A stretch of DNA of 64,000 nt from Ypsolopha sequella (taxonomy: Eukaryota > Arthropoda > Insecta > Lepidoptera > Ypsolophidae). Position numbers and translations under genes: made by a program. Location of the stretch: contig OW203993.1 in the NCBI GenBank assembly GCA_934047225.1, forward strand, positions 21,838,069 to 21,902,068, given 5' to 3'. Position 1 is the stretch's first letter; the number at the start of each line of letters is the position of its first letter. The notes under the pieces are model-generated. The model was not told the DNA's origin. It saw nothing but the letters and a program-made list of their open reading frames with translations, and did not search any database. This document shows, one piece after another, positions 17,531 to 45,104 of this stretch.

Positions 17531-19502
17531 TACAGTGCTCGCCATGTTAAAAGAGCGCTGGAACCGATTGGTTTCCACATGGGTACACTCGCGCACGAAA
17601 TTACTAGGCCTGTTGTTTTGAACTAGCGTCTTGCGGCTTCGTATATTGGTTATTGGTAAATAATAATTAATTAATTAAAAATATATTAGATATAATATCA
17701 CTAAATATAATTAAAACCATGTTTGATTCAGTGTAGAATGTTTAATATGGTACATAAAAAAATTAAAGTATTGAAACTCCTTCCATTAAGTCGTCGTGAG
17801 TGACGTGGAAACCAGATGAGGACGCGATGTTGGTGTTAGATGTGGCAATTTCATCGTCGTCGCTTGAGCTTTCATCATCATGTCGACCACATGATCGCTT
17901 TTAAAATAATCGGCCTCTATTTCCTTTACCTTGGTGCATAATTTCCCCCATTCTGTTGCTCCCATTAAATTTACTTTTTCCTCAACCAGGTCCGCTATCC
18001 GTGTAAGGTTCCAACTTACATTTTTGCTGGCGACATATCCCTTTATTTGGGACCAGGCCATTTCAATGGGATTTAAGTCTGGGTGATATGGGGGCAAACG
18101 AAGTACAGAATGGCCTGCTTCGTTTAATATGGCATCGATACTAAATTTCTTAAATTGTTCTTTGTAATTTTTTATTAAGTTGTACAACTCCGGCTTTAGC
18201 ATGGATTCTTCAAATTCAATTCCTTTTTGACGGAGCCAGGTTTGCATGTCTGCTTTCTTTGTATTGGATGTTGGTGCAGCATCGAGTTGTTTGTTGTGGT
18301 ACGATGCATTGTCGACTACCACGACTGAATTAGGTGGTAAATTTGGCATTAGTTTAGTACGGAGCCACTGCTCGTAATTCTGCGAATTCATGTTGTCGTG
18401 GTAATCGCCACTTTTCGTACCGGCTTTGAACGTCAGCAAAGCATTCAGCACAAAACCTGCTTCACCACCTGCGTGCACAATGACCAAGCGGCCACCTTTA
18501 GATAACGGTTTTTTAATGCCTTTGGTGGGATCGTTTGTCCAAGAATGGTGAGACGCATGGGAACTATCGACGTATGATTCATCAGTGTAAATGATTGGTC
18601 TTTCTTCCTCTCTATATTTTTTTATCTTTCCCAGATATTCAATTCTTTTAAATCGAATTTGTGACTGCTCAATCAAAATTTGTCTATTTGTTTCTATTTT
18701 CTTCTACTTAAAACCCAATTCTTTTATTATTCGCCTCAGACTTGTTGCAGATCCTTGGAAATGTAGATCATCCTGTAACTTTCTTTGCAACTTGCCTATG
18801 GTAGGCAATTCATTCTCAGTGACGTGGAAATTGTGTATTTTTTTTATAACACCCTGGTCAAAACTGTCAATGTCTGTTATTGGTTTTTGTTTTAATCTTT
18901 TATTTTTGCCGGGAGTTCGGAACACAGTAAGAAATTCCGAATCTTCTGAACATTTTACAATTCGTCTCACTGTAGCCTTGGAACATTTTGTAGCCTCGGC
19001 GGTCCGCTCAATGCATTTTTTAAAATTATCACCTGCATTATCAGCCTCTCTCTTCATATAACAATATATTTGTCTCACTGTAGACTCGGAATTTTTTGAT
19101 GCCTTGGCGATTCGTTCGATGCACTGTGCATCATTATCAGCATCTCTCTTCATAAAACCATATATTCGTTTCACTGTAGACTCGGAACATTTTGTTGCCA
19201 CGGCGGTCCGTTTAATGCATTGTGCATTATCATCAGCCTCTCTTTTCATAAAACAATATACGTCGTAAATAATTTTTCTCTCTTTTCTATGTAAAACCAT
19301 TTCGTAATTAAACACTTTGTGCGCGACAATACTTGAGGACAAACGTAACGTGGACACAGCGCGGAAATCAAGGGTCGACTGACGAAATAATAGCGCACAG
19401 GCAAGCGCCCCCGCCTGCCCCGCGCCGCACCTCATACCACCAAATAGACCGATAAATTCATACAATCGTCGCCAGCGCTCTTTTAACATGGCGATACCTG
19501 TA
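17531..19502 (-). mobile_element. Complete Tc1/mariner-like element (DD82E, Sailor-type)
   Basis: Terminal inverted repeats of 31 bp are at 17531-17561 and 19472-19502, with 'tacag....tcgccatgtt...' outward and 'aaaagagcgctgg' inward. The differences are limited to three positions after TACAG. The TA at each end is the expected target duplication, so the element proper is 17533-19500 (1968 bp). It carries one transposase gene on the minus strand. The termini and gene are all present, so the copy is structurally complete apart from one stop codon. Confidence 0.85.
17786..19300 (-). pseudogene. Tc1/mariner-like transposase with triplicated HTH and one in-frame stop
   Basis: The frame runs from the ATG at 19300 to 17786 (504 codons), interrupted only by a TAG at 18704-18706 near codon 199. 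Residues about 14-114 contain three tandem copies of a helix-turn-helix unit ending 'STVKRI', 'STVRQI' and 'ATVRRI', encoded by three DNA units of about 96-108 bp (18958-19258). The catalytic domain has 'IIYTDESYV', 'VVVVDNASYHN' and 'PDLNPIEMAW'. I count 82 residues between the second Asp and the Glu, matching the DD82E group described as Sailor. It would excise and reinsert the element by cut-and-paste at TA sites. The stop makes this copy non-functional unless read through. The upstream ATG at 19516 lies outside the element, so 19300 is the better start. Confidence 0.85.
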
Positions 19503-19993
19503 CCACGTCTGATCATCTTGTTTGAAAGTTATCCCGAAAATGACAGATACTCTTTTTTCTTTTGGCTTGACTGGCCAATCACAGATAACTAGAGTGTTGC
19601 TATTATGGTTTAAAAACCATCATCCATCATTTGGACTGAAGACCTTTTAAAAAGGCGTCTATGAGATGAATTGGGTAACTGTCTTGGGCTGGTACCGAGT
19701 AGAGTCCTTTTAAGGCTAGACGGTAAAACTTACGCGCGCGAGATTTGGATTCTCACAATTGTTGTAGCTGTTTCGGTCATTCGCGGCCGGCACGAGCGCG
19801 CCCTCCCCCCGCGCCCCGCTCCCTGCTCCGCACTTGTTCAATTTGTACTCACAGCTTACTGTTAGATCCAGATCAGGACATCCTTTCGTACTTTCGTTTT
19901 TAGTGCCTTTGGTTATTTAATTCAAAAGAAACAACATGCAAAATAAAAAATGAATGATCTCCTGTTCCTGTTTATCTAACGAACACAATATAA
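19503..19993. other. Stretch without gene between Sailor-type element and viral insertion
   Basis: It contains a GC-rich patch at about 19785-19840 and the palindrome 'tggtttaaaaacca' near 19605. No supported ORF, and no clear target-site duplication of the next element was found. Confidence 0.4.
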
Positions 19994-20305
19994 TAGGTCC
20001 TACCTAGACCCTACCGCCCGCCATTTTGAGATCGTACCCGCTGTGCGCCTCATTTTCATCTATTACTGTTTCTTACGAAGAAGATTAGCCGAGAAGAGCG
20101 CAACTAGGCACGAAGAAGAAGAAGAAACCCCTCTTGGAGAACACCAGAAACTTGGTGGCTCAGGCGAAGCGTGGTTTGTGGTGCATGCAGCTCCTTCCCA
20201 AGGTCAGATCTTTCATCTTCGTAATATTTTCTCTTCACTTCCCGCTATTTTAAAACCTATGGTGATACAAAGCACTGCCGTCATATCGCGTGCTCATTTT
20301 TTTGA
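19994..20305 (+). repeat. Left 312-bp inverted arm of the viral insertion
   Basis: 19994 ('taggtcctacctagacccta') to 20305 ('...catttttttga') is the reverse complement of 23253-23564. I count about five mismatches in 312 bp. The arm begins abruptly at 19994 with no matching sequence outside. The ORF running through it (20043-20423) is the same reading that occurs in the right arm. Confidence 0.9.
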
Positions 20306-20364
20306 TACAGAAACGCGTCTAGGTGGTAGCAACTTGGCCATTCGTAACGTAGGCACTTCTAGAG

Positions 20365-23226
20365 CTAGGGAAAAATACCTTTATACATCGCTTTCATACG
20401 ATTTTCAACATCCCTTTTCATGAAAAAGGATCGGTGCTGAAAGAGCGCTTCCAATTCGACATCGATTAGCAAAGGATCGACATTAGAGTGCTCAATCACA
20501 TGATTATGGATCAATCGCAATTGTGAAGATCTCACAACTCGTTCACCTGGGAAGACTTTTTGCCAACGGCGTGCAACGAGATCAACTACATATTCTGAAT
20601 AATTAATCAGAGGTTCATCATAGAGTGTGCTCCGACCTTCTTCATTGACAGTTCGGACCGCTTTAAGAGCATCATATACTTCTTCAAAGGATTGCATGCC
20701 CCGTAAACTTTCCAATAAGTTGGGAAAGCGTTTGCGTAAAGACATATGTTCTGGATGGTGTGAATTTGACAATAAGTGAGGAATGATTGCCCAACTCGCA
20801 TTTGTGGGTGAATGAAGCATTATTGAGCTGAGTATCAACTCTAAAAGAGTTTTTCTGCTCGTATCGTGACCGGCGTATTTGTTGGACAAAGTTTGCACAT
20901 ATGCAATGTGTACAATGTAATCCCTTGCGCAAGCGTCTAGAGATAACCCATAGACCGCCCATTTCCACTCTTGAGGTTTATCTGAACCTTTGGAGATCAT
21001 TAGCCAATGATACCAGTCATCAATGTGCAAGTCAAAGAATCTCTTATACAATCGCGCCACTTTCTTTAAATAATGATCAGAGAATCGTGCGCTTCCAGTA
21101 TAGCGAGGCAGACGCACAACAGTTGCAGTGGTGGTAGGCCAACCCGATGAGCGAAAAGCGAAGATCTCGCTCCCCATCAGATTGCACTCAATCAATGTCC
21201 GTAAATAGTTTACTGCCTCAAGCATGTCCTTTTCATTTTTCAATGCAATGGCATAGGCAGATTGGTAACCAAGTATCCATTCATCCACGCTATGCCAAAT
21301 CGTATCTTCGCATCTTTCCATCCTAACAGGAGTATTATCGAATCTGTCTGACAATTCAGGCAACCAGGAATTATCATTGAAGGTCTTTGCGCGCTCTTCT
21401 TCTCTAATTTTGAGAGGAGATCTAGCATAGAAATTCGATATAATTTTCTGTATGAACATGTTTAATGATGCTCTGTCTGACGTATACTCTAGAAACATAC
21501 GTAAGGCATGTCCAGAGGGTGATACCAGGGAATCGGTAGCAGAAAAACATTTCGGAAATTTAGGAAAAACACTTCCGTTTTTATGTGCAGCAACTTGTCT
21601 TGCTGAGTCGTATATAGACATTTTATCATCTGAGTGCAGTTTATATTCAGTTGATCCGATAAGATAGCATTCTGAAAATAGCAGCTCATTATACATATAC
21701 CTGCAGTCGGATGTGTTTGTGAAGAAGAACAATCCATCCAATTTGGCGGGGATGAGAGCTCGCGAGTCGAAGACAAAAGAAGGATATCTCCTAAGCAGCA
21801 ACGACTCTGGGAACACATATTCTTTATCTGATAAAAGATCACTTGTAAAGAAGCTTCCAACGAATTTTATATCGGAGTTAAACACGCGATCAAAATATCG
21901 TATCAATTTCGTTTCACTATTCCAGTTTAATGTGAATAGAGCAACTTCTGTAGATTTGGGAACTAAGGGGGCACTATCGATATAATCGCACTCACGGAAA
22001 ATGGTAGTGATGAAATTTAAGAATAATATATATTCCGAAACCTCATTCTTCTTTATGCGAAGATGTATTTCTTCAAGGTAGCTTTGCAACGCGTTAATTT
22101 GCGTGGGTGTAAGAACGACCAGTTCATCGCAATTTGAGAATCCGACACATCTCATCTCATATACATCCCTTACCAAGGTGAATGGTTGTATGTAGAGCTT
22201 TGAGTTTTTCGGAAACTCATACGAACCAACATTTGAAGTATTCACTTTCAGTTGATATATTTTTACTTCTTTCTTAAACCAATCAGAAGCAATAATCTGA
22301 TTAAGTGAAGCGATCTCTCTCAAGATCACGGATGTACGCACATCCTCAGCCATGTTAGATGCATCAACGTCTATGACGTCCCAGATGAACACTATGCCTT
22401 TATCTGATGGGAAACTGGTTTCAGACATTGCCTCAACGATGCCTCCCACATCAAAGATCATCCTTTTGGAGTGCATGAGAGTGAATCCGGTTACTCGGGG
22501 TGTATCCATATCTGCGGGATCGATCACAAGAACAACACCCCTAAAATCGCGCTCCGTGAGAGCAGACATCCAGCCGCTTCCTGGCGACCCCCCAACGTAT
22601 ATAATATTATAACCCGTCCTTGGAATTGCATACATAATTGCAGAAAGTTTTCGCTGACCATCTTCTTAATTTTTAGCCAATATTGATCTATAGATCGCGC
22701 GCAGATGTTCTTCACTCCGAGAGTCAGGTAGATGACCCTGTCGCCCATTAGCGATGCTGAAGAATTCACCGGGCGCATTGTTGCCACATATTTCATTGGC
22801 GTTTGCGTAGACATTCTTAGTGAATATCGACTCAAGTTCGGCGCCACACCAACGCAGAATAGGCATGAGCGATAGCTTATCACGAATTTGGTTACACAAA
22901 GAAATTCGTGTGGATTTGCCAAACAGTATTTCATGGAAAAGATCGTAGACGCTGCCGCTCGATAGCGGGAGCGTATACTCACGGAGATCATACAACAGTC
23001 CTGAATGTATCATCCTAGTTAGGATATCATGATTATATGAAGAAACCACAATAGTCATACATGTATCATAACCAATCCTGAACCACACTTGGTCCAGATA
23101 TTCGGATAGTGCCCGTGCATCCTTTGGGGGATTGAAGTGAATCGTATTCTTGTTCACAATAGTGTTAGCGACCGTCCGGTATTGACCAGTCGTCACCAGA
23201 AGGCCTCGATAGTTAAGTCTGGGCAT
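20365..23226 (-). pseudogene. Endogenous virus-like gene, reovirus-type capping enzyme / 2'-O-methyltransferase
   Basis: One frame of 954 codons from ATG 23226 to a stop at 20365, broken by a single TAA at 22666-22668 (codon 187). Just after it comes a methyltransferase core: Lys about 193, a glycine-rich SAM loop 'IIYVGGSPGSGW' (about 208-219), 'VVLVIDPADMD', Asp about 283 in 'FIWDVID', Lys about 327 in 'YQLKV' and Glu about 357. This K-D-K-E tetrad with this loop is the pattern of cap 2'-O-methyltransferases of dsRNA reoviruses and poxviruses. The overall length suits a reovirus turret/capping protein. The C-terminal 600 codons have no motif I can name. I infer an endogenised RNA-virus segment. 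A bidnavirus-like DNA origin is the main alternative. The gene fills the space between the arms almost exactly. Confidence 0.65.
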
Positions 23227-23252
23227 AGTCTCGTAGCCACTCTGTAAGCGTT

Positions 23253-23564
23253 TCAAAAAAATGAGCACGCGATATGACGGCAGTGCTTTGTATCACCATA
23301 GGTTTTAAAATAGCGGGACGTGAAGAGAAAATATTACGAAGATGAAAGATCTGACCTTGGGAAGGAGCTGCATGCACCACAAACCACGCTTCGCCTGAGC
23401 CACCAAGTTTCTGGTGTTCTCCAAGATGGGTTTCTTCTTCTTCTTCGTGCCTGGTTGCGCTCTTCTCGGCTAATCTTCTTCTTAAGAAACAGTAATAGAT
23501 GAAAATGAGGCGCACAGCGGGTGCGATCTCAAAATGGCGGGCGGTAGGGTCTAGGTAGGACCTA
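23253..23564 (-). repeat. Right 312-bp inverted arm, continuous with BEL/Pao 3' end
   Basis: Reverse complement of 19994-20305. Read on the minus strand, the arm follows without a break from a polypurine tract and LTR-like start at 23729-23565, so it looks like the R-U5-leader part of a BEL/Pao LTR. It ends at the run of seven T just before the viral 5' end. Confidence 0.85.
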
Positions 23565-23741
23565 GTCGAATGACAATCAGCGTAGACCTCCGGCGTGAAA
23601 GGCTTCTGATTGACGACTGATTGATTTGCGTCCAAAACTAAGCGGGTGGAGATGCAGCAAAAATGACAGTTGCAAATATTAATTCACAACTACCTCGCAG
23701 TATGAGAGCCACAAGAAGTGGCGCGAACATTTGCCCCCGGC
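23253..23741 (-). repeat. Candidate BEL/Pao LTR plus leader
   Basis: On the minus strand a polypurine tract 'cgccgggggcaaa' (about 23741-23730) is followed by TGTTCGCGCC (23729 down), the usual TG start of an LTR, about 90-100 bp after the end of the BEL pol fragment. 'ttggtggctcagg' near 23400 might be the primer binding site. No second intact LTR is seen, so the boundaries are provisional. The LTR's 312-bp downstream half is the inverted arm of the viral insertion. Confidence 0.45.
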
Positions 23742-23829
23742 GTTAAAACCATTGGTTTTAAAATAAGAATAGAAAAGTAAAAATAAGACAGAGAATAACG
23801 AAATTTTGAAGCGGGGGCAAAGAAAGGAG

Positions 23830-24300
23830 TTATTGAGATGGGAGAGGGCAAAGACGCACGACAGGTCGTTTGTAAACACCTGTCGTCGTTTTGACAGAAG
23901 CTACCCTAATGACATTATCTTTGCCAGGGTATACAGCTACAATGACACCGAGCGGCCATTGAAGCGGTGGAGTATTGTCGGTAACTACAACGACAACAGA
24001 TCCAATTTTGATTGGGTTGGAAAGTGTATTCCATTTTCCTCTAGACTGGAGAAGATGGAGATAATCATTCTTCCATCGCCTCGCGAACGATTCTACCATT
24101 TGATCAAGCAACGCGTAGCGACGTAATAAATTAACTAGCTCATCAGCCACCTTACAAGTGGGTAATTCTTTTAAAGGAGTTGACATCAGAAAATGTGCAG
24201 GAGTTAACGCGCTAAGTTCGGATGGATCTTCACTCAGCAGCGTAAGCGGACGAGAATTTATGACACATTCTATTTGCGTAACTACAGTTAATATTCCACG
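23830..24300 (-). pseudogene. BEL/Pao pol C-terminus (integrase end, DUF5641-type)
   Basis: The open frame 24186-23830, extended upstream to about 24300, reads 'VVTQIECVINSRPLTLLSED', then 'RRWKNDYLHLLQSRGKW', 'PLQWPLGVIVAVYPGKDNVI' and 'TGVYKRPVVRLCPLP'. This is the C-terminal domain that follows the integrase core in BEL/Pao elements. The rest of pol and gag is missing. At about 24300 the sequence turns round: the matching upstream part of the integrase is found on the opposite strand. Confidence 0.8.
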
Positions 24301-24447
24301 TAGCCCACATTTTGGGGGACATTATGAGATATATGTCAAAGGATTTAAGACGCATTTGCATAGAGTAGTAGGTACTCAACTGTTGACCTACGAAGAATTA
24401 TTAACTGTAGTTACGCAAATAGAATGTGTCATAAATACCGGTGTATA
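24290..24447 (+). pseudogene. Inverted BEL/Pao integrase fragment
   Basis: Plus-strand codons read 'SPHFGGHYEIYVKGFKTHLH', then 'VVGTQLLTYEELLTVVTQIE', the late integrase block that should directly precede the minus-strand piece at 23830-24300. A 38-bp segment (24260-24297) is the reverse complement of 24396-24433, so the last integrase residues are present twice, in opposite orientation. This marks an inversion with a short inverted duplication. Confidence 0.75.
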
Positions 24448-31304: not shown

Positions 31305-33567
31305 CTAGGCTAATTCAATGTTGTGGTTTACAAATCTATCTGGATCATGAAGAGGGATATTTGAAAAAATATTTTGGCCTGATAGTGCATTTAAGGCTTT
31401 GGTCACGATAAATTTCGTGGTATATGTTTTTTTAAGCCTCTTTTCCTGATTCAAACCTTGTCTTATAATAGTTTCACACCGGCGACATAATGATATGACA
31501 TCTACAGATGCGTATATAAGGTAACCTCTGCTTTTTTGGTATGTTAAGCTTTTATCGTTAAACTCTCCTAAAAGTCCTTTAATACACGATTGACATTTGA
31601 TTTTTTTCATTAAAGAAAAAGCTACAAATCCCGCTATGTATTCAATTACCTTTTCTCTTAAAGGTGAAAGATATATTTGACACTCAATATCATCCATAAT
31701 ATCAGCTTCAGTAAATTGATTATTTGATTCAGCATGGTTTTCTTCTTTTGCACTTGAGGTTATATTAATTTTTTCAACTGATGAGCAATTCAAAATACTA
31801 ATTTGTTCTAAAGGGATACAGTTTGTGCCTCTTTCGGTTCTTATTAATTCCGTGTGAACTAGAAGTTTTTTATAAATAGCTTCTAATTGCTGTGCAGTTG
31901 GATTATCTGAAAATCCACCGTAACTTCGAATATTAGAGGAAAAAATCTCTATATGGTCTTGACTCACCTTGTGTAAAGGAAGAAAACTCATGCCGGTTTG
32001 AGAATTCAATACTAGATCTTGAAAAATTAATTTTGCGCTTTCAATACAGACTAAAAATCCCAAAAAGCCTGTAAAACGAGGACTTTCCAGTATATTTACT
32101 CGTTTGACAGTGTTGTTACGACTTATGACGTCAGAATATAAATTCATCAGCATAGATTTCGCTTTGTCTAACCTGTCAAAAGCATGTTGGTAATTTTCAC
32201 AAGACATGGCCTTTTTAAAATTAAATCCACACGTCTTTGAATCTAAAATATCAAAGATATCGTTTATAAGCTTAAGGAATTCCGCTGTCGGCGTGATATC
32301 ATGAAAATCCGGTAAGAACATTATATTTTTACAAAACAGCAAAGCATCTGCAACGCTGTTGCTAAAGAGCTGAGCTGCCAAGCGCACATTCATTATTTTA
32401 GATTTAAAGTAGATATGATTTGATCTTAGTCTGTTGGCTAAGTAAAATAGTTCCTCTTGTAATTTATGAAGAAGCATCACATGCTTCCACTGAATTTTGC
32501 TGCCCGAAGCATCGATGAAATATTCATATTGTTCAAAACAATTTCGGATTAGCTTGAGCATATGGCATGGATCTAAGAAAAAGTATATCGTTTGCCCAGA
32601 TGATGGATCGACTATAGTTGTCTGCAGTTTTTGTGGATCCATGCAACATCCCAACTCTTCAGCCATTGCTATGTTAGCCCTTGTACCATCACATGTTAGT
32701 GATTTTATTTCCATGCCTGTATTACTAACAATTTCGAATGCTTTTGTTACTAAACGTGATTTCAGTTCTCCGGTCATTCCCTTTATTAAAAAATATCCAA
32801 TCGGAACTTTCCATGTTGTGTTTATGCCCACTAACAAAAACACTAAGGCATCCGTAGCTGCTTCACTACTATCAATAGCAAAATCAAATCCGTAGTCCAC
32901 ATGGCCATAATGCCTTTTTGTGCGAGGGTTCCATTCAAATCCGTCTACACTCTTTATTTTCATTTCGTCTATAACGAGAGCGCAAAATATCTTCTTCTCT
33001 TGGTTACAGTCTTTTATTGATTTAAGAGCATTAAGGGCTTCTTGGGTAAAACCCGGACGCCCGTCTACGGTACTGTACCATTTTGTGAGAGTACGTGGGT
33101 GGGGCAAGCACGTTCCAAATGTTTTACGGACGTATCTGTACGCCTTAGGTGAATAGTAATTAAGTAAGGGCAAAACATCTTAATTCAGGTGAAAACTTCT
33201 TTCTTGACAACTTTCCAGTTTCTGACATGGCTACCTGTCTTTTTAGTAACTCTTGATTTTCAACACCAATTTTTCCCAAAATTAAACAATCTTCTTTAGA
33301 AAGCAATGCCTTTTCTTGCAAATTCTGGAGGATTTCTTGCAAGGTGGCTACCTTTTTTTTGAGATAGCGAGTTTTCGATTGCAACCTTTTAACTTTTGTC
33401 TTCTGTAATTTTAATTGTTTTAAGAGTTTTCGCTTTCTTGGCGTTAAAACATCAAATTGATTTATTGGTTCTTTTGAACAATCAGCTATTTGATCATTTT
33501 GGCATAACGGTAAGGGTGTTGATGGTCTGTAGGTTGTTATATTCATTGTAAGCTCTGGCTTAGATTC
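31305..33567 (-). pseudogene. P-element/THAP9-like transposase, catalytic exon (exon 4) with a frameshift
   Basis: The exon begins at a TTTATTTCAG acceptor (GAA at 33567). The first part (to 33160) has a Leu/Lys-rich coiled coil ('LLKQLKLQKTKVKRLQSKTR'). A one-base frameshift near 33175 moves the frame. The second part (33173-31305) has the P-type RNase H-like core: 'FCALVIDEMKIKSVDG' with the first Asp, 'SLTCDGTRANIAMAEELG' with the second, a GTP-binding-type insertion region, and 'DHIEIFSSNIRSYGG' with the expected catalytic Glu before 'DNPTAQQLEAIYKKLL'. P-type enzymes cut and paste DNA, aided by GTP. The frameshift disables this copy. Confidence 0.8.
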
Positions 33568-40099: not shown

Positions 40100-40445
40100 G
40101 AAAAAAAGAACACTGTGAAGCCAAGTTCCTCTAGGGCTTTTTGAATTTCGAGTTGTGGGGTGTCAGCCGGTAATCCTCTCACCGCCACCTTGGTGGGTAA
40201 TTCGTTGGTGGGCGTGTAGCCGTACCAGTGGACTGTGGGGTCGCTGGTCCTCGCCTCCGATAGGTACTTCTGGATAACACGGAATTCCTCTATTGTTTTA
40301 GGTAAAAATCTGAACCCACCTTGGAATGGGCGGGCTGAAGGGCACGGCCAAGAAGCGTGTGCAGCTTCTTGAAATGTTCCCCCCAATTGGGTAGTTTCGT
40401 GGCTACAATAGGGAGGTAGCTGCGAGTGGATATGATTGGAGTTTC
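40100..40445 (-). pseudogene. Jockey-like LINE ORF1, downstream half
   Basis: Minus-strand codons include 'FLPKTIEEFRVIQKYLSEAR', 'VHWYGYTPTNELPTKVAVRG' and 'LPADTPQLEIQKALEELGF', the PRE_C2HC-type nucleic-acid-binding region of jockey/X-element ORF1 proteins. The match ends at about 40100, so the LINE is truncated before its zinc knuckles and pol. It continues upstream at 45110 on the far side of the LTR retrotransposon at 40446-45104. Confidence 0.7.
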
Positions 40446-40644
40446 TGTTATGAGCTTTACAATTAATTATAAATAGTGTGTATCTGCATAACATTTCTCT
40501 ATGGTAAAAAGCTCTAGCTTGTCTGCGGCCCCGTTTCCGGTTGTCATCCAAATGAAGAAAAAGAAATACATATTTCGAGTGACTGAAGAAATCTACTTTT
40601 ATTTCATTAATCCTACACTACAATCTTTCTGGAACGAACCAATA
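40446..40644 (+). repeat. 5' LTR, 199 bp
   Basis: Starts TGTTATGAGC and ends GAACCAATA. Followed after two bases by 'tggcgacgagaggg' (40647 on), the likely tRNA primer binding site; similar TGGCGAC sites are known from insect gypsy elements. Confidence 0.9.
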
Positions 40645-40664
40645 AATGGCGACGAGAGGGAAGA

Positions 40665-43600
40665 ATGACGGTGCCTACAAATTTTATTGAATTTTTCGAC
40701 AAAAATCAAAAATTTTCAAGATGGGTCGAAAGATTGGAAGGTGCGTTTTCCATCTACAAGGTTACGGAAGAACATGCAAAAAGGAACTACTTCCTCCATT
40801 ATATTGGCGCGGAAACGTACGATACAATTTGCGATTTGCTGTCCCCTGATAGTCCTAAAGATAAGCAGTTTGAAACCTTGAAATTGACGCTGATACGTCA
40901 CCTGGAGCCAGAACCGTTGGAGATAGCAGAGTACTACAAGTTTCATAACAGGAAGCAGCTCGAAGGAGAAACAATACGGGATTACATTGCTACACTGCGA
41001 AAGATGGCTTCATCCTGCAATTTTGGGTGTTTTTTAGATACAGCTCTGCGAAATCAATTTACGTGCGGCTTACGCGACGAGAAGGCCAGAGACAGGTTGC
41101 TAGAAACTAAGGATTTAACTATTGAACGAGCACTCCAACTAGCTCAAAGCATGGAGGCACGAAAATCTGAGAATAATATACATTCTGTGCAAACTAAAAC
41201 TTTCCAAGATGGATCATCAAGAAGGTACAAAAACAACAACAACATTAAGAAGCCTCAGTGCTATCGTTGTAACTCGCTTGACCACTATGCTAATAAATGT
41301 CCACACATCAATGTAGAGTGCTCCTACTGCAACAAACATGGACATTTGCGACGGGCCTGCATGAAAGCGAAGAGAGCAGTCCATGTGGTCGACGTTGAAG
41401 AGGAGGTAAATGATGTTGAAACGGTGTCATACAAGGTAAATGTTATTGACTTTGCTAGTAAAGATAAAATCACTTTAACTGTAAAAATCAACCATTTTTA
41501 TATTAAAATGGAGTTAGATAGTGGGTCTGCAGTATCAATAATAGGGGAAAATGAGTTCAAATTGAAATTTCCAAATGTAAAACTCCGAGAAACACCTGTA
41601 AAATTATACTCTTACACTAATCATAATTTAAATGTTATAGGAGTGGCTGAAGTTGGAGTAGAGGTGCTCGGTGAGAAGAGGGACGGTTTGCTGTTGTATG
41701 TGGTATCAGGAATTAATAAGATGGCATTATTTGGAAGGCAATGGCTGCGTTGCTTCTCTCCCAACCTATTAAGTAAAGCTCTTGAAGTAAATCAGGTACA
41801 AAAATTTAATAGTACATTGACAGTTCAGGCAACTCTGGATACATTATTTAATAAATACCAAACACTTTTTGATAACAGTTTAGTGAGGGAAATTAAAGGA
41901 GAACCAGTGGCATTACATTTAAAAGAAGGAGCAAAGCCTATATTCTGTCGGGCTAGGCCAGTTCCATTTATGCTTAGGGAAAAAGTCGAAAAGGAATTGG
42001 AACGGTTAGTGCAGCAAGGAGTTTTAGTTAAAGTTAATTATAGTGAATATGCAACACCAATAGTACCAGTTCTAAAACCGAATGGGGAGGTTAGGTTGTG
42101 CGGGGATTTTAAAGTTACAATCAATCCACAAATTATAGTTGATGAACACCCTTTACCGACACCGGATGAACTGTTTGCTGACTTAGCAGGTGGGGATAAG
42201 TTTACTAAAATTGATTTAAAGTGCGCTTACCTACAATGGAAGGTAAGAGAACAGGATCAAAAGCTATTAACTCTTAATACCCATAAAGGGCTATTCCAGA
42301 GTACAAGATTAATGTATGGGTTAAATTGTGCACCAGCCAAATGGCAACGTAAAATTGAAAACATTCTGAAGGACATTCCGGGGACGTCTGTGTTTATTGA
42401 TGATATCAAAATTACTGCACCTGATGATAGAACACACTTGGAAAGATTAGAGCAGGTATTTGCAAAACTAGCTGAACATGGGTTAAAAATAAATTTAAAA
42501 AAGTCGCAATTTTTACAAAACGAAATAGAGTATTGTGGGTATAGGATCAACAAAAAGGGTATTCATAAACAGCAGTCTAAAATTGAGGCTATACAAAAGG
42601 CACCAGTTCCAAAGAATATTACAGAATTACAATCTTTCTTAGGATTAGTAAATTACTACAGTCGTTTCCTGAAAAACCTTGCTGACACATTAGAACCATT
42701 ACATAAATTACTGAGAAATGAAACGAAATGGGCATGGACTGAAGAATGTAATAATGCATTTAATATTATTAAGGCACAAATGCAAAGTGATTCATTCTTA
42801 GTTCATTACTCCCCACACTTACCATTAATATTGGCTGTAGATGCATCACCGATAGGGGTGGGAGCCATTTTATCACACCAAATGCTGGATGGTAGTGAAC
42901 GTCCGATTCAAATGGCATCACAAACATTAAATAAAAGTCAAAGAAAATGGTCTCAAATAGATAAGGAGGCTTATGCAATTGTCTTTGGGGTAAAGAAGTA
43001 TTTTCAGTACATATTTGGTAGACAATTTACATTATGCACAGATAACAAACCTTTGAGCCAAATATTTTCACCAGAAAAGGCTTTACCTCACATGTCTGCC
43101 ACCCGGATGCAGCATTATGCTATTTACTTACAAGGATTTAATTACAATATCAGATACAAAAGCTCTAAAGACAATGCAAATGCTGATGCATTATCTCGGT
43201 TACCCTTAAATTTAGAAGAAAAGCATGTGCTAGAAGCTGCAGACTTAATAGAGATCAATCAAATAGAAAAAATGCCAGTGACAGTTACAGATTTGGCTTC
43301 TGCGACAGCGGAAGATATCGAATTGAAATGTTTACTAGATGGGTTAGCGATCGGTAAAAAAATGACAAATTCTGAAAGACTAGGTATAGATCAATGTGAA
43401 TTTTCAATTCAAAGTGGATGCATTATGAGAGGCACAAGAGTAGTGATACCAGTTAAGTTGAGAAAAAATGTAATAACTGAACTACATTCAGGGCATTTTG
43501 GGGTAAATAAAATGACAGTACTGGCTCGCAGTTACTGTTGGTGGCCAAACATAGACATGGATATCAAAGAGTTTGTAAAAAATTGTGTACAATGTTGTGA

Positions 43601-44624
43601 AACCAAATCTGCACCAAGAGAAGTGGAAACACATCATTGGGAAAATCCATCACATCCTTTTGAAAGAGTACATATTGACTTTGCTGGTAAATTCTTAGGT
43701 ACATATTTCTTTTTGTTGATAGATGCTTATTCTAAGTGGCCAGAGATCTACACACTGGACAGAATTGACACAGACAGTACAATAGAAGCATTGCAAGATA
43801 TTTTCAGTAGGTTTGGTATTCCTAAGATATGTGTAAGTGATAATGGAGCTCAATTCGTTAACCCTAAATTTGCACTGTTCCTAAAAAAACTTGGGATAGT
43901 ACACAAGAGGTCCGCACCCTATCATCCGGCCACGAATGGACAATGTGAACGCTATGTTCAAACTATGAAAAATAAATTGAAATGCCTAGGGGCAAATAAA
44001 AGCAACATACAAGAAAAATTAACTATATTTCTGCAACAGTACAGGAATATGCCTCATTCTGTTACCAACAAATCACCAGCTGAGTTAGTGTTTAGTTATC
44101 TGGTTAGGTCAAAGTTATCATTAATGATACCAGAACAAATACAAGTTTCAGGTTATAAAAAGAATACAGATAAAAAAATAAGAGATCTAAGGGTTGGTGA
44201 CAGAGTTATAGCAAAAAATTATTCAGGAATAAAAAAATGGAGATTCGGAATTGTAAATAAAAGGTTGGGAAGGCTTCATTATGAAATTGAAGTAGATACT
44301 GGAGAGAAGTGGCGCAGACACATTGATCAACTGAGAGAAGTAGGTAGAGAGATACCATTGCAACATGAGCCGGACTTGCTTTCTTTTCCACCGTTGCAAC
44401 CGCTACCATTGATTGAGGTTCCAAGGGAAACTCTGGTTCATAATAAACAAAATGAAGGAATATCTACAGATTCAAATGATGATGCCACACCATCTTTAAA
44501 GTCTAACGAAGAACCAGAGTCTCAACTGCAACCAGAAGTAATAAAAGACAATATTGTAATAGAACAACCACAATTAAGGAGAAGTTGTAGAGTAAGAAAA
44601 AAGGTTGAGAGATTAGATTTGTAA
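40665..44624 (+). CDS. Gag-pol polyprotein of Mag-like Ty3/gypsy retrotransposon, 1319 aa, intact
   Basis: A single frame carries every domain. Gag occupies about 1-195. Two CCHC knuckles start at about 199 ('CYRCNSLDHYANKC') and 219 ('CSYCNKHGHLRRAC'). An aspartic protease has 'MELDSGSAVSII' at about 283. The reverse transcriptase has 'DLKCAYLQW' and 'FIDD' at 577-580. RNase H has Asp 726, Glu 768 and Asp 793. The integrase has an HHCC finger (His 941/944, Cys 974/977) and catalytic Asp 1005, Asp 1059 and Glu 1095. There is no env. A fused gag-pol without env is typical of the Mag lineage, common in Lepidoptera. All catalytic residues looked for are present. It copies and integrates its own RNA via cytoplasmic particles. 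Confidence 0.95.
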   Translation: MTVPTNFIEFFDKNQKFSRWVERLEGAFSIYKVTEEHAKRNYFLHYIGAETYDTICDLLSPDSPKDKQFETLKLTLIRHLEPEPLEIAEYYKFHNRKQLEGETIRDYIATLRKMASSCNFGCFLDTALRNQFTCGLRDEKARDRLLETKDLTIERALQLAQSMEARKSENNIHSVQTKTFQDGSSRRYKNNNNIKKPQCYRCNSLDHYANKCPHINVECSYCNKHGHLRRACMKAKRAVHVVDVEEEVNDVETVSYKVNVIDFASKDKITLTVKINHFYIKMELDSGSAVSIIGENEFKLKFPNVKLRETPVKLYSYTNHNLNVIGVAEVGVEVLGEKRDGLLLYVVSGINKMALFGRQWLRCFSPNLLSKALEVNQVQKFNSTLTVQATLDTLFNKYQTLFDNSLVREIKGEPVALHLKEGAKPIFCRARPVPFMLREKVEKELERLVQQGVLVKVNYSEYATPIVPVLKPNGEVRLCGDFKVTINPQIIVDEHPLPTPDELFADLAGGDKFTKIDLKCAYLQWKVREQDQKLLTLNTHKGLFQSTRLMYGLNCAPAKWQRKIENILKDIPGTSVFIDDIKITAPDDRTHLERLEQVFAKLAEHGLKINLKKSQFLQNEIEYCGYRINKKGIHKQQSKIEAIQKAPVPKNITELQSFLGLVNYYSRFLKNLADTLEPLHKLLRNETKWAWTEECNNAFNIIKAQMQSDSFLVHYSPHLPLILAVDASPIGVGAILSHQMLDGSERPIQMASQTLNKSQRKWSQIDKEAYAIVFGVKKYFQYIFGRQFTLCTDNKPLSQIFSPEKALPHMSATRMQHYAIYLQGFNYNIRYKSSKDNANADALSRLPLNLEEKHVLEAADLIEINQIEKMPVTVTDLASATAEDIELKCLLDGLAIGKKMTNSERLGIDQCEFSIQSGCIMRGTRVVIPVKLRKNVITELHSGHFGVNKMTVLARSYCWWPNIDMDIKEFVKNCVQCCETKSAPREVETHHWENPSHPFERVHIDFAGKFLGTYFFLLIDAYSKWPEIYTLDRIDTDSTIEALQDIFSRFGIPKICVSDNGAQFVNPKFALFLKKLGIVHKRSAPYHPATNGQCERYVQTMKNKLKCLGANKSNIQEKLTIFLQQYRNMPHSVTNKSPAELVFSYLVRSKLSLMIPEQIQVSGYKKNTDKKIRDLRVGDRVIAKNYSGIKKWRFGIVNKRLGRLHYEIEVDTGEKWRRHIDQLREVGREIPLQHEPDLLSFPPLQPLPLIEVPRETLVHNKQNEGISTDSNDDATPSLKSNEEPESQLQPEVIKDNIVIEQPQLRRSCRVRKKVERLDL

Positions 44625-44884
44625 TAAATTTGGTGGCATTACATTATATAAGCGTTAGTGCCTACACATTTAAGTATAACAGGTAACACTATGTCATTTT
44701 TTACTGTAGTTTAACGTACCTACATGAGTGTTCATTACGTTTAAATATAAATTTGTATGTGATGTTTACGTATCCGTATCAGATGTTAAATGACTGATTC
44801 TTGTTTGTATTAGTTTAATTGATTAGAAGGCGCTGTATTAGTAACAAGAGTTTTATATTATAGAAAAATGTTTCTTATCTGAAT

Positions 44885-45104
44885 TTATTTTGTGGGGGGA
44901 AAATCTGTTATGAGCTTTACAATTAATTATAAATAGTGTGTATCTGCATAACATTTCTCTATGGTAAAAAGCTCTAGCTTGTCTGCGGCCCCGTTTCCGG
45001 TTGTCATCCAAATGAAGAAAAAGAAATACATATTTCGAGTGACTGAAGAAATCTACTTTTATTTCATTAATCCTACACTACAATCTTTCTGGAACGAACC
45101 AATA
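44885..45104 (+). repeat. Polypurine tract and 3' LTR
   Basis: 'tgtggggggaaaa' just before 44906 is the plus-strand primer. The LTR at 44906-45104 matches the 5' copy along its full 199 bp. About 280 bp of AT-rich non-coding sequence separates it from the gag-pol stop codon at 44624. Confidence 0.9.

Follow-up and report, generated by a model that had tools for sequence, protein, structure and literature searches.

Chimeras of RNA viruses and LTR retrotransposons have been published before. LCMV together with IAP was reportedly described by Geuking in 2009, and work by Goic from 2013 is likewise said to belong here. In Bursaphelenchus xylophilus, an endogenous nodavirus RdRp was found in a BEL/Pao-type element, and copy-choice recombination during reverse transcription was proposed (PMC5177903). 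In Aedes, AeBunya1 lies inside a Pao-Bel element (PMC5497376), and a CFAV fragment occurs with a Ty3/gypsy LTR and gag (PMC6797480); template switching is proposed in the available text on these chimeras. The locus of the lepidopteran Ypsolopha sequella analyzed here is like the B. xylophilus case in that an RNA-virus gene was caught with a BEL/Pao element, and like the Aedes cases in that chromosomal viral DNA is combined with LTR retrotransposon sequence. In B. xylophilus, however, the viral gene sits between two LTRs together with pol, and the accessible part of that report does not mention inverted LTRs, whereas here the LTR ends are inverted, apparently untrimmed and enclose what looks like a whole dsRNA segment. 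The Aedes chimeras belong to other virus groups and are fragments or embedded copies; a segment placed end to end between inverted LTRs is not described in the portions available. In a published insect case, reverse transcriptase activity converts a reovirus segment to DNA during infection, which resembles the conversion assumed here. No LTR sequence is reported in the accessible text on that case, in contrast to the LTR joints and the chromosomal copy kept at our locus. Finally, the virus falls in the same clade as the orbi-like Reovirales EVEs of insects and nematodes, with Hubei lepidoptera virus 4 as reference (PMC12548735); that survey, as far as its available text goes, deals with RdRp and gives no account of the capture mechanism or of the segment ends. 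In the open-licence literature, no publication that we found describes a dsRNA segment enclosed from end to end by inverted, untrimmed LTR ends. The palindromic end-to-end form is new, as far as our searches reach.

The window, i.e., the whole stretch of 64,000 nucleotides that we analyzed, sits in a 30.5-Mb contig of the assembly; the viral sequence thus lies inside a host chromosome and is a non-retroviral EVE. We propose that it is a single-copy EVE in which an apparently complete orbi-like VP4 segment was probably made DNA together with a BEL/Pao element, via template jumping, and then became fixed in the genome. The initial annotation had described two inverted arms of 312 bp, about 98% identical, around one gene. 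This arrangement was confirmed: positions 19994–20308 and 23250–23564 form an inverted pair of 315 nt, 98% complementary and spaced by 2941 nt. The arm proper consists of LTR sequence (303 nt) and a T7 run, and the final few paired bases belong to the viral side. The whole insert spans 19994–24436 and comprises, beyond the right arm, what remains of the LTR and the 3′-terminal stretch of the retrotransposon internal region.

The left arm (19994–20296, plus strand) contains only the 3′ part of a BEL/Pao LTR, which starts around LTR position 166 and reaches the CA end, the first roughly 165 bp being absent; perhaps it is an R-U5 piece resembling strong-stop DNA. Between the CA end and the virus lies a T7 run (20297–20303, plus strand), which we read as a cDNA tail that extends to the primer site and was left untrimmed. 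The viral segment copy extends from joint to joint over 2951 nt (20304–23254), its sense on the minus strand. A T7 run (23255–23261, minus strand; A7 on the plus strand) also marks the second joint, followed by the right arm, a full BEL/Pao LTR that reads toward the virus (23262–23729, minus strand). This LTR continues directly into the 3′-terminal part of the BEL/Pao internal region (23730–24303, minus strand). A fold-back piece of the same internal region then runs in the opposite direction (24288–24436, plus strand), with a short matching overlap at the switch and a 38-bp inverted repeat (24256–24293 and 24399–24436). Host DNA is assumed to start at 24437. The outer extents of the arms are unequal, the last 303 bp of the LTR on the left and a full LTR plus internal region on the right.

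The viral frame on the minus strand begins with an ATG at 23226, 28 nt inside one joint, and stops at 20365, 61 nt short of the other. These spacings agree with the 26 and 59 nt given previously, the small difference depending on the base chosen as the arm end. As a correction to the initial description of a frame of about 950 codons, the frame proved to be split by a single in-frame TAA (22666–22668) and is thus not open. The N-terminal piece of the VP4-like capping enzyme runs from the ATG to this TAA (22666–23226, minus strand), and the larger piece of 756 aa (20365–22635, minus strand) contains the predicted 2′-O-methyltransferase fold and the capping-enzyme C-terminal part. A sequence search with the larger piece gave 13 protein matches at E ≤ 1, the best at 1.2e-234, so this is not a chance frame; two Hubei lepidoptera virus proteins match at about 1e-221. 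Identity was 43% to Morris orbivirus VP4 and 46% to Hubei lepidoptera virus 4/5 proteins. In the tree, the capping enzyme falls in a clade of nine with a support of 100/100. The predicted structure of the larger piece has the fold of non-turreted reoviral capping enzymes and matches rice dwarf P5 and bluetongue VP4, both of which are non-turreted sedoreovirid enzymes.

By kinship, tree and predicted fold, we hence assign the frame to a VP4-type capping enzyme of an insect orbi-like reovirus, with capping activity as a prediction. The initial suggestion of a capping-type methyltransferase of a dsRNA virus thus held. Its comparison with reovirus turret proteins did not: a turret protein was rejected, as the best solved folds are the non-turreted enzymes. 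Among solved folds, a mammalian orthoreovirus outer-shell chain appeared no higher than rank 46 (E 0.097), and among viral models, a cypovirus S4 protein had rank 37 (E 0.021). The Pfam scan of both frame pieces returned no match, and Pfam Orbi_VP4 was reached by one of 12 family members (E 0.073). Searches of the PDB gave weak or no matches by sequence and weak, unrelated ones by profile, and the Rfam search gave nothing. Orbi_VP1 found no match in the genome, where the control was equally silent.

An intact, spliced host gene, the case brought forward against viral capture, was not seen in this genome (867 Mb in 151 contigs; the searches cover the genome of this species alone). Six further places match the larger piece, every one partial. 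One of them (L042, G000:C22:3507500–3514500) matches window positions 21622–23253 at 99.1%, with 14 differences in 1632. It has the same first viral base as the window copy and different DNA in front. An older relative with 54% identity (L043, C4:2982500–2989500) starts at the same viral base. Both read GTTGAAAA at the viral start, which the T run plus G of the window overlaps as TTG. From these starts we infer that the 5′ terminus of the clade may be 5′-GUUGA; for comparison, the orbivirus terminus is GUUAAA. According to the available text of Brown and Firth (2025; PMC12548735), no conserved termini were found for the orbi-like clade. The viral 3′ end in the window, known from this copy alone, resembles the 5′ end read inward, with GAAACGC in common, which is suggestive only. 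On the basis of one shared 5′ end and this symmetry, the segment looks complete. Of the initial proposal that a whole RNA-virus segment was captured as cDNA, the viral part is therefore supported by homology, fold and tree, and the wholeness by these two features of the ends.

L042 has an own open frame of 544 aa and is without an LTR match. About 10 kb away, another locus (L046, C22:3496500–3502500) repeats 73 bp of the L042 viral end together with adjoining DNA. L042, L043 and L044 (C22:9044000–9051000) end within about ten residues of each other in the larger piece (339, 336 and 329, respectively), although with protein identities of 98%, 54% and 63% these insertions differ considerably in age. 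This common stopping zone might be due to internal priming or a fragile site. With the frame pieces counted apart, the window copy and L042 differ by 3 synonymous and 10 non-synonymous changes plus one at the stop, and the synonymous share of possible changes is 22–23%. This pattern is what neutral decay would give for two insertions from a nearly identical virus.

Both arms are LTR pieces of a multi-copy BEL/Pao retrotransposon and represent neither viral nor bidnavirus termini. The genome search for arm copies envisaged in the initial annotation revealed this family, and the boxed layout at this locus only. The arm has at least 41 matches, of which at least 40, the two in the window among them, are near full length (40 of 938 first-look candidates were scored), and at least eight same-strand pairs among the listed matches lie 5.2–7.9 kb apart. 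In the three elements aligned (L031, L033 and L034), LTRs of about 472 bp are in direct orientation and 99.8–100% alike within an element. Their termini are TGTTCGCG...CGTGCTCA, i.e., TG...CA ends, and a 5-bp target duplication accompanies all three copies. L031, the one element scanned for domains, contains Peptidase_A17, DUF1759 and DUF5641 above cut-off and hence a Pao-type pol; RVT_1 scored just below its cut-off (29.2 versus 29.6 bits).

A 6-bp deletion common to both arms occurs nowhere else in the genome at ≤1 mismatch, and the same search yielded no source element carrying it. A larger gap occupies its site in two of 28 other copies. One further base is common to both arms and absent from the 28 other copies. 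Compared with each other, the two arms have 5 differences in about 303 sites, three changes being private to the left and two to the right arm. At a butterfly rate of about 3e-9 changes per site and generation, this divergence would correspond to roughly 3 million generations, with a wide error. At another locus (L032, G000:C20:10036000–10045999), two BEL/Pao elements lie head to head with their right LTR ends joined and no virus between them; the halves of this palindrome are 99.2% alike over 4.9 kb.

At the joints, both arms read inward LTR-CA-T7 and then virus, with GAAACGC on one side and GATACAGAAACGC on the other. Both viral ends are thus joined to the identical point of the element, just past CA and T run. 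Among 30 fetched loci, 16 have a T-run junction, which in 13 is the canonical T6/T7-GGCCATTCG after CA; the three non-canonical ones are the two window joints and L009. The other 14 loci continue from the CA end into varied DNA without a T run, like integrated 3′ or solo LTRs. In a whole-genome exact search, an LTR end followed by T7-G-nonG occurred at exactly two sites, the window joints, and the T6 form of the same motif was absent from the genome. These pattern searches were exact or near exact, and diverged copies would escape them. Since this joint is unique to the two arms and they have private changes in common, we conclude that both arms came from one source. Before integrase trimming, the linear cDNA of LTR elements ends on the right with CA and the bases that reach to the primer site. 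Reasoning from this general biology, the CA-T7 at the joints would be the untrimmed right end of unintegrated BEL/Pao cDNA. At its outer edges, the insert ends in an LTR tip on neither side and has no flanking target-site duplication. The lack of a duplication, as opposed to its presence in three of three normal copies, argues against an involvement of integrase.

As the probable course of events, we suggest that inside a BEL/Pao particle the element cDNA, ending in CA and the T run, would run off its template, and that the cDNA end would jump onto the 3′ terminus of viral RNA, once for each strand of the dsRNA. Both products would be complementary over the full segment and could pair and be filled in to LTR>virus<LTR, one partner being a pol-U3-R-U5 end and the other an R-U5 piece. 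This molecule would then enter a chromosome break by end joining and decay neutrally. That end joining served for chromosomal placement is suggested by the outer edges described above, neither an LTR tip nor duplicated. We also considered that the primer site was bound by the viral 3′ termini instead of the tRNA; this was rejected, since by eye there is hardly any pairing past the last base, and the jump from the element's end is preferred for the same reason. More tentatively, the locus might exemplify a general route of dsRNA-virus capture, in which the last two T of the BEL/Pao U5-end T tract pair with a 3′-terminal CAAC on both strands and are extended, yielding a palindromic box. As both segment strands are present, the two cDNAs would in this CAAC-pairing reading be complementary and close into an LTR>segment<LTR box.

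As the main alternative, end joining might also account for the joints themselves. Any reverse transcriptase could have made double-stranded cDNA of the virus, which host repair would then have ligated to two unintegrated BEL/Pao right ends before the concatemer was inserted. We consider this rather unlikely, although not far-fetched: end joining alone could yield the virus-free head-to-head right-end joint of L032 with its 99.2% alike halves, and in the window, the fold-back as well as the insert's two borders with host DNA resemble repair or switching scars. However, end joining usually trims ends, whereas the two joints use the same base of the element without visible loss, the arms stem from one source, and at either joint the overlap of the T run with the inferred viral terminus is alike. 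Identical, loss-free joints from one source are explained less well by end joining than by jumping. The T runs also weigh against a chance nesting, in which two independent LTR insertions of opposite direction would flank an older viral insertion. Even in a genome where this LTR family is common, such a coincidence is hardly credible, because no T run follows the CA of integrated 3′ or solo LTRs, whereas both arms carry T7 straight into the virus, have private changes in common and show neither host DNA nor a target duplication between arm and virus.

Inverted arms that flank one viral gene had initially also suggested a bidnavirus-like or transposon-like replicon with TIRs and a captured reovirus gene. 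We now regard this as extremely improbable. The arms are pieces of a BEL/Pao LTR, which normally occurs in direct orientation; their outer extents are unequal, and the right side runs on into LTR and pol 3′ end, so that the insert has no TIRs at its two outer ends in common with other copies. The boxed layout was found once in the genome. Moreover, 19994–24436 contains no polymerase or transposase frame of its own of ≥80 aa, the listed ORFs being the VP4 pieces and short overlaps. Palindromic layouts are, on the other hand, a known source of long-read chimeras, and the assembly might hold a chimeric or fold-back join. This, too, is improbable, as the arms differ at five sites, extend outward to unequal lengths and enclose viral sequence that is not repeated.

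Other mobile elements are present in the window. A Ty3/gypsy-like gag-pol frame of 1319 aa (40665–44624, plus strand) lies between two 100% identical direct repeats of 201 bp; this stretch (40444–45104) probably is a young LTR element. A P-element/THAP9-like transposase frame of 622 aa occupies 31305–33173 on the minus strand. Two adjoining minus-strand frames with DDE_3 and HTH domains at 17786–19516 probably represent a broken mariner/Tc1-type transposase. Positions 1–2049 contain a cluster of direct and inverted repeats, e.g., 1–373 versus 1501–1873 (inverted) and 1091–1348 versus 1501–1758 (direct).

The step from viral RNA to chromosomal DNA has mostly been inferred from fragments near LTR elements, whereas here both joints are kept to the base. 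Base-exact joints at the pre-integration cDNA end make a jump versus a ligation at the untrimmed U5 end testable in insect cells. The locus furthermore offers candidate segment termini for a clade without any found so far, as far as the available text of the survey goes (PMC12548735). If CAAC pairing was indeed the route of capture, it would also record the conserved termini of this virus clade, 5′-GUUGA...UCAAC-3′. For the host, the orientation of the insert may be of relevance. The full-length right LTR faces the virus, and a transcript from there, if any, would hence read the viral sense strand. Such an LTR-started transcript would fold back via about 300 bp of inverted LTR and might thus be a source of antiviral dsRNA.
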